Shown here: positions 30,036-36,734 of the stretch, one piece after another
Position numbering within the stretch: position 1 is the first letter of the stretch
Layout of the letters: every line of letters starts with the position of its first letter
Assembly (NCBI RefSeq): GCF_000017185.1
Contig: NC_009635.1
Location: 62,001-126,000, forward strand
From: Methanococcus aeolicus Nankai-3
GTDB lineage: Archaea > AGJL01 > Methanococci > Methanococcales > Methanococcaceae
Direction: 5' to 3'
DNA: 64,000 nucleotides
Notes under the pieces: generated by a model
Database searches by the model: none
What the model saw: the letters and a program-made list of their open reading frames with translations, nothing else
What the model was told of the DNA's origin: nothing
Program-made: the position numbers and the translations under genes

Positions 30036-30400
30036 GGGAGCTCCGGGAGCTCCCAAAATATTTTTTTAACTTATTTCGGCGAGAAGTCCCCTTCCGTAAG
30101 GGATTAAACAAAATCCTTCGGATTTCGCTTACGAAGTAAGCGAGCAACAAAATCGAAATCTCCGATTTCGAGCTACAAAACTCGAAGAGTTTTGTTCAAA
30201 CCGAAGGTTTTTGTCTAATTGTAGCCCTCCGCTTCGCTACGGGGGGATGAAAGCCGAAAATTATTTATATAACTATTCTCACAATATTTATTGCTACCGA
30301 AAAGAAAAGGTAGCCTAGGGCTGGGACAGTCCGAAGTGACGCCTGTGGAGACTACGGGTCGGAAGCAGGAAGCTCCGTCCGTAAGGTCGGAGTAGTTCAC
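30036..30400 (+). mobile_element. Decayed IS200/IS605-type element with omega-RNA-like right end
   Basis: This 365-base spacer starts with two GGAGCTCC palindromes (30036-30054). Then come paired blocks GGCGAGAAGTCCCC (30078-30091) and GGGGATGAAAGCC (30243-30255), split by five tandem hairpins with 3-base loops (30111-30210). Last comes a 3' part (30312-30400) that encodes the TnpB C-terminal tail and ends with a GC hairpin (CTCCG with CGGAG, 30372-30391) and TTCAC. In IS605-type elements this right end is also the omega RNA used by TnpB. The transposase genes are gone. The left boundary is uncertain. Confidence 0.6.
30315..30395 (+). pseudogene. TnpB C-terminal remnant
   Basis: In frame with the TAG at 30393-30395, this translates to LGLGQSEVTPVETTGRKQEA and then PSVRSE. 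The run with S-E-V-x-P-V-E-T and K-Q-E-A-P is the typical C-terminal tail of archaeal and bacterial TnpB proteins, whose DNA doubles as the omega RNA. The RuvC and zinc-finger parts are absent. It is therefore a remnant, or a non-autonomous derivative that keeps only the right end. Confidence 0.65.
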
Positions 30401-30423
30401 AATCCTATCAAATATATTAACAA

Positions 30424-32936: not shown

Positions 32937-35900
32937 ATGGAAAACAAAAATCTGCCAAATAATTTCCAAAGGAAAAATGAAACAAAAGTTATGAATATAC
33001 TTAATGAAAACGGCATAAAATCTCTTAGACCACCACAACAAAAAGTATTAAATAATAATTTGCTTGATAAAAATAAAAATTTTTTAATTTGTATTCCTAC
33101 GGCATCGGGAAAAACACTTATTGGAGAGATGGCTTTTATAAACCACCTGTTGGATGAAAACAAACAACCGACAGGGAAAAAGGGACTATTTATAGTTCCA
33201 TTAAAAGCCCTTGCAAATGAAAAATACGACGAGTTTAAAGAAAAATATGAAAAATATGGTTTAAAAGTGGCTTTGTCCATTGGAGATTTTGATGAAAAAG
33301 AGAATTTATCGAGCTACGATCTAATCATAACTACTGCTGAAAAACTTGATTCTTTAATGAGACATAGGATCGATTGGATAGATAAGGTTTCTGTTGTAGT
33401 GGTAGATGAAATCCATTTAATAGGGGATGATGAAAGAGGAGGAACCCTTGAGATCATTTTAACGAAATTAAAGAATTTAAATAATATCCAATTAATCGGT
33501 TTGTCTGCAACTGTTGGGAATCCAGAGGAACTTGCAAACTGGCTAAATGCAACACTTGTAATTGATGATTGGAGACCTGTGGAATTAAAAAAAGGAATAT
33601 TCTATAAAAACAAAATAGAATACATTGATGAAAATAATTCATTAGACGAAATCACGAAGAGTGATTTCGTTGCTCTCCGTTCGCTTCGCTCACTCCAAAA
33701 ACCCCTAAACGATAGTTATAAAAATGACATTATGAATTTGGTTGTAGATTGTATCGATGAAGATGGTTCATGTTTAATTTTTTGTAATTCTAAGAGAGGA
33801 GCGGTTAGTGAAGCAAAAAAATTGAATTTAAAGAAATACTTATCCCACAGTGAAAAACACGAACTTCAAAAACTGAAAGACGAAGTTTTAAGCATATTCG
33901 ATCCACCAACTGAAACCTGTAGAGCTCTTGCAGAATGTATTGAAAAAGGGGTGGCATTTCACCATGCAGGTCTTACCTATGAACAGAGGAAAATAGTTGA
34001 AGAAGGATTCAGAAAGAAACTGATAAAGGTTATATGCTGTACTCCGACACTCTGTTTAAATGCAAATACCGAGATATTGCAAGAAAGTGGATTTAAAAAG
34101 ATTACAGAATTGAATAAAAATGAAAAGGTATTTGCATTGTGTGGAAATAAAATAAGACCAGTGGATTGTTGGAAAGTTCATAAAACCCCGCAACATGAAT
34201 ATAATATTGTTGTAAAAACCGCAAATGGGCTAAAAATTACCACAACCCCCAATCATTTGTTCTTAGTTAAAAAAGGAAAAGAGACCTGTGAAAAAGAAGC
34301 AAAGGATTTAAAAGTGGGGGACTATGTGGCTACTGCTGATAAAATAGTGGTTGAAGAAAGAGATATTGATTTATCCTATGGGGACCTTTATTTCATTGGA
34401 TATTTTATAGGAGATGGCTATACCGGTGTTATCGAAAAAAATGTATTTAGAGGTAGTCCCGATATTACGTTTAATCCAAAATACCCGCCAAATTTTGATG
34501 ACTCTAAACTTCACAAAAAATACTTTTTAAAAATTAAAGAGGAAGGAAATGTTTCTCATTATGTATATTCAAAAAGACTAAGGGAAGTATTTAATGAATT
34601 AAATATGCTCACTAAGGATAACAAAAATATTGATGTATTTTACATTCTTCCATTGGAAAAGTTATCACACTTTATTGCAGGGTTGTTTGATAGTGATGGA
34701 TACATTAATGCCAACAGAAAGAAAATAGGATTCTCTTCGATATCAGAAAATCTAATCAAAAAACTACAATTAGCATTATTGAGGTTTGGAATACATAGCA
34801 CCATTAGAAAAAGAAAAGGAAAAGTTATGAAGCTTAACAAAACCTTCAGGTTTTGTAAGTCTCGACGAAACCGAAGGTTTCGTGAGTCAGCAAATCTTCG
34901 ATTTGCTTCGACAGCGAATCCAAAGGATTCGCTTCGATCGCCAACAAATAATAAAGAATACAAAAGTAGAGATATTTATGAACTAATAATTGGTGATTTT
35001 GTAAGTGTAAAAAGATTTTATGAAAATATTCCACTGAGACACAAGGAAAAAAGAAGAAAATTGGAAGAAATCGTAAAAAGTAAGGAAATTGCTAAAATGT
35101 GGTGTGATTGCGGATTTAGCATTGATTTAACTATGTTTAAGCCAAGAACAAAAAGTCAGAATGAATTAAATAAAGAGCGTGTAAAATTACTTTTTGAACT
35201 ATTAAATGGAAAAAAATTGGTTATGAACTACAATAACTACTATTCAAAGAGAAAGAATCCCCATTTTGAGTTTATCATAAGAGAAAAGATAGGTGGAAAT
35301 AAAAAAGGAGTATATTATTCTCTAAATGATAAAGGAAAAATTTTAATGAATCTTCTTAATAAAAATATAAAAGATAAAGAGAACTTAGAAGAAATGTATG
35401 ACTTCTTAGTAAATCTTGAAAAATGCCCAATTTGTGGCAAGCCACTCTACAAAGAAATGAGACATAGTTGGAAAAAAGAATATTATGATGGAGATATTTA
35501 TTGGAGCATGATCAAAGAAATTAAAAAAATAAAGGTAAATGACAAATATGCTTATGACATAGAACTACCAGATGATGGGACAAATGACCATTATGTTGTG
35601 GCAAATGGATTTATAGTACATAACTCTGCTGGACTAAATTTACCTTGTAGAAGAGCAATTGTAAGGGATTTAAAGAGATTTTCCGGTAGAGGTATGGCTC
35701 CAATTTCAAAAATGGAAATTCAGCAATGTATTGGAAGAGCCGGGAGACCTGGTTTAGATCCTTATGGTGAAGGAATAGTCTATATAAAAAATCCAAACGA
35801 TGTTGAAAAAGGTTTTGAATACTTAACTGGAAAGGTGGAGGACATATACTCAAAACTTTCCAATCAAAAAGTTCTTAGAACCCATATCCTTGGATTGATA

Positions 35901-36734
35901 TCCACGAGGGAAGTTGAAAATGAAATGGATTTAAAAAACTTTATAAAAAACACATTTTATGCTCACCAGTATGGAAGTCTCCAAGGAGTTTTGAGGAATG
36001 TAAAAGAAGTCGTTGATTTTTTAGAGGATTATGATTTTATCGTTGCATTTACACCAACAAAACTTGGGAAAAGAGTTTCAGAACTGTATATTGATCCATA
36101 TAGTGCAAAAATAATTATAGATGGATTAAAAAAGATCAACAAATCCTCTGAGTTAAATACAAATCTAGAGCTCTATATGTTATATGTACTGTCAATGACC
36201 ACGGAAATGAGGCCCCCTTTAAGAGTAAGAAATCATGAAGAAGAAGATTTAATTTTAGAAATGATGGACTTAAATATTGATGATTATTCCTGGGAAAATT
36301 TAGAAAGCTTTAAAACTGCAAAGATGTTCTACGACTGGATTAATGAGGTTCCAGAGGAGGATATATTAAAAAGGTATGGAATTGAACCTGGGATTTTAAA
36401 GTACAAAGTTGAACAGGTTAAATGGATGGCATATTCTGCAAAAGAAATATTTAATCAATTAAATTTAAAAAATGAACAAATCAAAGACTGTTTATCTGAA
36501 TTGGAGATAAGACTCGAGTATGGTGCTAAAAAAGATATCATTGAGTTACTCAAAATTAAACACGTTGGAAGAGTTAGGGCCAGAAAACTATACGACGCTG
36601 GAATAAGGAGCAAAAATGATATTGTAACGAACCGCTCAAAAGTCATCAGTTTGCTTGGAGATAAGATCGGAAAAAAAGTCTTAGAAGGATTTGGTTTGAA
36701 ATATGGTCAGCAGACACTACTTAGCTTCCAATAG
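32937..36734 (+). CDS. hel308: Hel308-type DNA helicase with an intein
   Basis: This 1265-codon frame encodes a superfamily 2 DNA helicase for stalled forks and recombination repair. Walker A is PTASGKT, the DEAH-type box is VVVDEIHLIGDDERGG, and SATVGNPEELANWLNA is motif III. QQCIGRAGRPGLDPYGEG is motif VI, and a C-terminal HhH region (HVGRVRARKLYDAG) follows. An intein at 34053-35624 (524 residues) splits VICCTPTL from SAGLNLPCRRA. The extein is 741 residues, slightly long because of a palindromic insert at residues about 237-252. Start: ATG at 32937 after AACGGTGAAT. No GGAGCTCC occurs in this gene. Confidence 0.95.
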   Translation: MENKNLPNNFQRKNETKVMNILNENGIKSLRPPQQKVLNNNLLDKNKNFLICIPTASGKTLIGEMAFINHLLDENKQPTGKKGLFIVPLKALANEKYDEFKEKYEKYGLKVALSIGDFDEKENLSSYDLIITTAEKLDSLMRHRIDWIDKVSVVVVDEIHLIGDDERGGTLEIILTKLKNLNNIQLIGLSATVGNPEELANWLNATLVIDDWRPVELKKGIFYKNKIEYIDENNSLDEITKSDFVALRSLRSLQKPLNDSYKNDIMNLVVDCIDEDGSCLIFCNSKRGAVSEAKKLNLKKYLSHSEKHELQKLKDEVLSIFDPPTETCRALAECIEKGVAFHHAGLTYEQRKIVEEGFRKKLIKVICCTPTLCLNANTEILQESGFKKITELNKNEKVFALCGNKIRPVDCWKVHKTPQHEYNIVVKTANGLKITTTPNHLFLVKKGKETCEKEAKDLKVGDYVATADKIVVEERDIDLSYGDLYFIGYFIGDGYTGVIEKNVFRGSPDITFNPKYPPNFDDSKLHKKYFLKIKEEGNVSHYVYSKRLREVFNELNMLTKDNKNIDVFYILPLEKLSHFIAGLFDSDGYINANRKKIGFSSISENLIKKLQLALLRFGIHSTIRKRKGKVMKLNKTFRFCKSRRNRRFRESANLRFASTANPKDSLRSPTNNKEYKSRDIYELIIGDFVSVKRFYENIPLRHKEKRRKLEEIVKSKEIAKMWCDCGFSIDLTMFKPRTKSQNELNKERVKLLFELLNGKKLVMNYNNYYSKRKNPHFEFIIREKIGGNKKGVYYSLNDKGKILMNLLNKNIKDKENLEEMYDFLVNLEKCPICGKPLYKEMRHSWKKEYYDGDIYWSMIKEIKKIKVNDKYAYDIELPDDGTNDHYVVANGFIVHNSAGLNLPCRRAIVRDLKRFSGRGMAPISKMEIQQCIGRAGRPGLDPYGEGIVYIKNPNDVEKGFEYLTGKVEDIYSKLSNQKVLRTHILGLISTREVENEMDLKNFIKNTFYAHQYGSLQGVLRNVKEVVDFLEDYDFIVAFTPTKLGKRVSELYIDPYSAKIIIDGLKKINKSSELNTNLELYMLYVLSMTTEMRPPLRVRNHEEEDLILEMMDLNIDDYSWENLESFKTAKMFYDWINEVPEEDILKRYGIEPGILKYKVEQVKWMAYSAKEIFNQLNLKNEQIKDCLSELEIRLEYGAKKDIIELLKIKHVGRVRARKLYDAGIRSKNDIVTNRSKVISLLGDKIGKKVLEGFGLKYGQQTLLSFQ
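33646..33694 (+). repeat. Palindromic insert inside the Hel308 extein
   Basis: A hairpin with stem ACGAAATCAC and loop GAAGA (33646-33670) is followed by an imperfect palindrome rich in CTTCGCT (33675-33694). Together they encode TKSDFVALRSLRSLQ, a run that looks unlike the flanking helicase sequence and that I would not expect in Hel308. The reading frame is kept. It resembles the hairpins in the spacers and in the intein. Confidence 0.6.
34053..35624 (+). other. Hel308 intein with LAGLIDADG homing endonuclease
   Basis: This 524-residue intein has Cys1 (CLNANTEILQESGF), block B TTTPNHLFLV, and the C-terminal end VVANGFIVHN with the penultimate His and terminal Asn; the +1 residue is Ser. 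Two endonuclease motifs are visible: YFIGYFIGDGYTG at intein residues about 112-124 and FIAGLFDSDGYIN at about 206-218. Both keep the acidic residue, so it may be active. It sits in the conserved TPTL/SAGLN motif of the helicase, within a conserved helicase motif. A four-hairpin insert occupies intein residues about 262-297. Confidence 0.92.
34837..34942 (+). repeat. Tandem hairpin array inside the intein coding sequence
   Basis: Four hairpins stand in a row: stem ACAAAACC with loop TTCA (34837-34856), ACGAAACC with GAA (34865-34883), AGCAAATC with TTC (34889-34907) and AGCGAATCC with AAA (34913-34933). Linkers are short and CTTCGA-like. In frame they encode NKTFRFCKSRRNRRFRES and ANLRFASTANPKDSLRSP, an Arg/Ser-rich run between the endonuclease part and conserved-looking NNKEYKSRDIYELIIGDF. 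The length keeps the frame open. Confidence 0.75.

Follow-up and report, generated by a model that had tools for sequence, protein, structure and literature searches.

The hel308 gene of Methanococcus aeolicus Nankai-3 carries two palindromic inserts, one in the helicase extein and one in its intein, and both keep the reading frame. This claim of the initial annotation was confirmed by inspection of the sequence and its open reading frames. Both inserts lie in a 3.3-kb tract that is common to a genome of another genus (G033), which the annotation had overlooked; they are therefore probably not two local insertion events. We propose, with a probability of roughly 70%, that the inserts arose in the G033 lineage and then came together into this genome by intein homing with co-conversion. 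According to this proposal, short palindromic repeats of the Methanococcales would have inserted in frame into hel308 and its intein, presumably in the lineage of G033. The intein endonuclease, whose LAGLIDADG_3 domain is present (Pfam), would then have cut an intein-less hel308, as the centred tract of 100% identity suggests, and repair would have copied the intein together with roughly 0.9 kb of each flanking extein part, bringing both palindromes. We lean slightly towards the wider reading that intein homing carries selfish palindromes, in the intein and the adjacent extein, across genera into a housekeeping gene, and that the endonuclease homed despite an insert of 35 residues.

Palindromic inserts in hel308

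The window, the whole stretch of 64,000 nt analysed here, belongs to a genome that consists of a single contig of 1,569,500 bp. It contains the following features:

30081-30250, unstranded: intergenic array of similar short hairpins (spacer copy)
32937-36734, plus strand: hel308 (ski2-type helicase) open reading frame, 1265 aa, interrupted by the intein, open throughout (Pfam DEAD, Helicase_C, Helicase_dom4_arc)
33150-36593, plus strand: tract common to the window and G033, 100% identical over 33150-36417 (3,268 nt), with mismatches at 36418 and then 36594
33641-33698, plus strand: two-part palindromic element of the extein (hairpin and GCTCTCCGTTCGCTTCGCTCACTCC tail), in frame, residues ~236-255 (R1 match)
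33646-33670, unstranded: hairpin of the extein element, perfect 10-bp stem, 25 nt (folding)
34053-35624, plus strand: Hel308 intein, 524 aa (CLNANTEIL...VHN, +1 Ser), with LAGLIDADG endonuclease (Pfam Intein_splicing, LAGLIDADG_3)
34833-34937, plus strand: intein insert of exactly 35 codons, four-hairpin array in the endonuclease region (from comparison with other Hel308 inteins)
34837-34856, unstranded: intein array hairpin 1, ACAAAACC/GGTTTTGT
34865-34883, unstranded: intein array hairpin 2, ACGAAACC/GGTTTCGT
34889-34907, unstranded: intein array hairpin 3, AGCAAATC/GATTTGCT
34913-34933, unstranded: intein array hairpin 4, AGCGAATCC/GGATTCGCT

The extein hairpin reads ACGAAATCAC-GAAGA-GTGATTTCGT and is followed by the tail GCTCTCCGTTCGCTTCGCTCACTCC. 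It had been placed at 33646-33694; the hairpin is indeed present but ends at 33670, and what follows, as far as about 33696, belongs to the element as its conserved tail. The whole element adds about 20 residues (LDEITKSDFVALRSLRSLQK) instead of the 16 assumed before, and its edges are blurred because loop length is naturally variable at this site in the Hel308 alignment. For the intein, an array of four hairpins at 34837-34942 with about 36 residues had been described. The four hairpins were found again, whereas the borders of the insert and the number of codons had to be corrected as listed. The two inserts were also taken for one hairpin type, but they represent two repeat types, a hairpin with a tail and an array.

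The intein array has a predicted folding energy of -48.3 kcal/mol compared with -24.1 +/- 3.3 for shuffled sequences (z -7.4, reached by 0 of 200 shuffles). Taken by itself, the extein hairpin gives a weaker fold signal (z -2.5, 2 of 200 shuffles). For its tail, 0 chance matches are expected in the window, and two spacers elsewhere in this genome have the tail as well, preceded in both cases by a hairpin whose stem is different. The recurrence of the tail and the strong covariation within the repeat family (see below) argue against a chance origin of the extein hairpin.

Comparison with other Methanococcales

For comparison, 36 Methanococcales genomes were used, which are also the whole phylum-wide set. 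A helicase match was found in all 36 of them. Among the Hel308 exteins that were recovered and aligned, the insert of 20 residues occurs only in the window genome and in G033 (L013), and the insertion site is a loop that differs in length in other species too. Where other Hel308 inteins extend over the site, they lack the 35-aa insert, and the other genomes of the same genus (g1) align without a Hel308 intein. The expectation that both inserts would be absent from other Methanococcales thus held for all relatives compared except G033. In G004, the Hel308 intein has an independent insert of 45 nt at a different position. This insert has ATTG at both ends, and its empty site reads AAAGAA/ATTGCC in G006 and AAGGAA/ATTGCT in the window (the slash marks the insertion point).

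A dispersed family of two-part repeats

The extein insert is a member of a dispersed family of two-part repeats. A covariance model (R1) was built from nine copies and searched in the 36 genomes (E <= 0.001); the hel308 extein element matches it with 62.6 bits (E 4.6e-17). Since 150 candidates were scored per genome, the counts are lower bounds: at least 100 copies in G033, at least 40 in G029, at least 25 in the window genome, at least 14-20 in G034 and G035, at least 11 in G004 (those in its hel308 intein and in an ATPase gene among them) and up to at least 11 in the genomes of g5. No copy was found among the scored candidates of the seven g2 genomes at the same threshold. Hairpin density follows a similar line, G033 being much richer than the window genome and G023 being poor. 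The typical unit has the order ATTRAAC-stem-loop-stem-TAGCTC-second hairpin-CTCCGATT. In the first stem of R1, 98.9% of the cells are paired, and 152 double changes were counted compared with 44.5 +/- 4.5 after shuffling, which is also far above slid controls. In the window genome itself, two related arrays lie in spacers, and two-part copies are numerous. No Rfam family matches the repeats.

The way in which the repeats spread was approached through their ends and through a search for Y1 transposases. No sign of a target-site duplication was seen: among 77 copies, the hexamers at the 5' and 3' ends showed no covariation, with an imperfect pattern for the 3' end. The repeats resemble REP/REPIN elements with their RAYT (Y1) transposases in forming tandem short hairpins that lie mostly in spacers. 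A REP/RAYT mechanism was rejected: a Y1 transposase was not found in G033, the richest genome, stem sequences are not conserved and copies within genes are recurrent.

A tract common to two genera

The tract diverges abruptly at both ends, inside hel308, in two single-contig genomes with native gene ends. The intein lies near its centre, with 903 identical nt before it and 793-969 nt after it, and a tract of this shape, centred on the intein and ending abruptly within the extein, is what homing with co-conversion would leave behind. Other matches between the window genome and G033 are mostly 60-75% identical, and the tract is the sole common segment longer than 1 kb with at least 96% identity (431 kb x 478 kb sampled).

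The main alternative is that the hel308 segment crossed the genera by ordinary homologous recombination or DNA uptake, with the intein merely along; we regard this as rather unlikely. Such recombination would yield the same tract, and two segments without a known intein have moved between the two lineages too, a stretch of 721 nt (95.7%) and a DUF4445-like gene (90.8% over 2,050 nt). The hel308 tract, however, is the longest one sampled and the only one with 100% identity, and it has the intein in a central position between flanks of similar length, as in endonuclease-driven co-conversion. Homing therefore remains the preferred reading.

Both of the other exchanged segments have features of their own. 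The DUF4445-like gene is a 2Fe-2S/ASKHA gene (L163:1-2042 in the window genome, L082:902-2949 in G033), and the pair carries a common palindromic insert in which the second hairpin was replaced by a different, still perfect hairpin. The 721-nt stretch (L154:5399-6117 in G033, L064:15464-16182 in the window genome) may represent a recent exchange or a mobile element. The KlbA intein of G033 was considered as a second case of homing and discarded, since the window genome is intein-less there; the KlbA exteins, used as a control, are 78% identical.

The donor is tentatively assigned to the lineage of G033, mainly because the intein array is written in the repeat dialect of that genome. It agrees with one dispersed G033 array over 57 nt without a mismatch; in the remaining 409 kb sampled from the window genome, the longest match is no more than 18 nt. 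The combination of the linker and AGCNAAT stems occurs 7.3 times per 100 kb in G033 and 1.2 times in the window genome. In a tree of the tract, the remaining g1 genomes, which lack it, fall into one clade (support 100/96) and the window groups with G033 outside g1; the tree alone gives no direction. A transfer in reverse, from the lineage of the window to G033, would leave the same symmetric identity, and two-part elements native to the window genome exist, the tail being the same in two of these. This direction is improbable in view of the dialect of the array and of the missing intein in the other g1 genomes.

In-frame copies in other genes

In the stretches of G033, 79 R1 matches were found, of which about a dozen lie in frame within or at the end of plausible genes. 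The host genes, several of them named by eye, are Hel308, Hef (between the helicase and ERCC4 domains), a 2Fe-2S/ASKHA protein, a HepT-like RNase, a metallo-beta-lactamase-fold protein, a membrane protein, BioF, HemC, the intein of a KlbA-like ATPase, TfrB, a YgiQ-like radical SAM protein and the end of an fdhD-like gene. Two further matches within open reading frames (L132:2057 and L141:1848) were left out, as these frames are not gene-like. About 84.5% of the sampled G033 genome is coding and R1 copies are strongly under-represented in genes, as expected if most insertions into genes get lost. TfrB is longer by 19 aa only in G033 among 14 orthologues compared, and YgiQ by 15 aa only in G033 among six, both with clean empty sites. 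The elements are read forward in Hel308, HepT and HemC and in reverse in Hef, BioF, YgiQ and TfrB. The insert peptides vary with frame and strand, so that the common feature is the DNA. A palindrome dispersed in many copies, inserted in frame where orthologues lack it and read in several frames and both orientations is what characterizes RPE-like elements.

BioF and an ATPase gene have inserts in more than one genome. In BioF, elements with different stems occupy one site in G033 (L145) and G007 (L220), which belong to two archaeal families; this reflects either repeated insertion at this site or an old insertion with turnover of the stems. The ATPase gene has one insert common to G004 (L209) and G006 (L216). 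Its stem is compensated, it is more conserved than its flanks and its loop is inverted (C-TTC-G versus T-GAA-A), as if the centre of the palindrome had flipped. Compensatory changes that keep stems paired even within genes, as in this insert, could point to functional RNA or regulatory structures selected in the hel308 mRNA. We consider such a function very improbable, because the same elements lie for the most part in spacers, turn up in unrelated genes, are read there in several frames and both orientations, and have no Rfam match; moreover, perfect pairing can also result from recency or from correction by template switching.

The insert in the HepT-like RNase of G033 (L137:3399-3450) is located right at the end of the Pfam match (residue 98, profile position 87/120). 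By eye, it lies between the Arg and the His of the HEPN motif R-x4-6-H (LYNGLR/insert/AIVHKY), and its position in the sequence suggests that the protein may be inactivated. For HemC, the alignment to PDB entries stopped short of the insert.

Tolerance of the inserts

The inserts had been expected to form surface loops. In the AlphaFold model of the N-terminal extein (mean pLDDT 73.8), residues 237-262 have pLDDT values below 50 and are placed between a strand (226-230) and a helix (264-274), which agrees with a disordered loop at the extein site; alignments to solved Hel308 structures break at the insert. The intein model, with a mean pLDDT of 46, is too poor for placing its insert. Tolerance may be explained by repeat DNA that is open in several frames, and the model suggests that the extein copy adds a flexible loop. 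That the inserts are simply native variable loops of Hel308, or the product of contamination or misassembly, is hardly credible: the extein site does vary in length in relatives, but the insert DNA is part of a family of dispersed repeats and the breakpoints lie inside a gene with native ends in two single-contig genomes.

Relation to known systems

Rickettsia palindromic elements (RPE) are said to have been described by Ogata et al. in 2000. The parallel to them drawn in the initial annotation is sound, as both are dispersed palindromes which lie in frame in unrelated conserved genes and are apparently tolerated. RPE have a length of 105-146 bp (PMC2229807), whereas the elements described here are two-part units of 45-57 bp or multi-hairpin arrays, with highly variable stems. 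According to PMC2996958 and PMC2229807, in-frame palindromes occur in Rickettsia, Wolbachia and M. jannaschii (Suyama, Lathe and Bork 2005). The assumption that coding palindromes had never been reported for methanogens was thus mistaken. The M. jannaschii elements likewise come from the Methanococcales and are dispersed palindromes, some of them in frame in protein genes. They reportedly bear the names MJRE1-3. Compared with MJRE, as far as these are known from citation and topic, the present family has expanded far more, in G033, occupies an extein and its intein at the same time, and probably moved between genera together with the intein.

The tract also resembles cases of homing and co-conversion by LAGLIDADG inteins, with a centred, very recent stretch of identity in a conserved gene and intein-less relatives. 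It differs from these cases in its extein cargo, which includes an unrelated palindromic repeat. In the literature consulted we found none of the following: such elements in Hel308, in an extein together with its intein, or carried by intein homing. What is new is therefore how these copies reached the genome, as coding palindromes were already known from M. jannaschii.

These findings extend protein-coding palindromes from Rickettsia, Wolbachia and one report on M. jannaschii to much of an archaeal order, and the transfer tract points to a route that such repeats can take across genera. G033 is rich enough for studying insertion, frame use and tolerance. Pairs of filled and empty sites, and an insert-bearing intein that was apparently mobile recently, make translation, tolerance and mobility directly testable; a test of translation would concern the peptide LDEITKSDFVALR and the inserts of TfrB, YgiQ and BioF.

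Other repeats in the window

A GC-rich, structured-looking spacer lies at 30318-30410, for which the Rfam search gave no match. A portion of this spacer is also present in G023 (L087:4003-4028), close to a similar TCGCTTAC hairpin. The palindrome GGGAGCTCC / GGAGCTCC is hugely over-represented in the window, with 45 strand matches per 64 kb compared with 0.08 expected. Its sites (e.g., 7428, 14504, 24855, 29385 and 48288) are found in genes and spacers and resemble the cyanobacterial HIP1. GGAGCTCC also terminates some of the two-part elements in G033.
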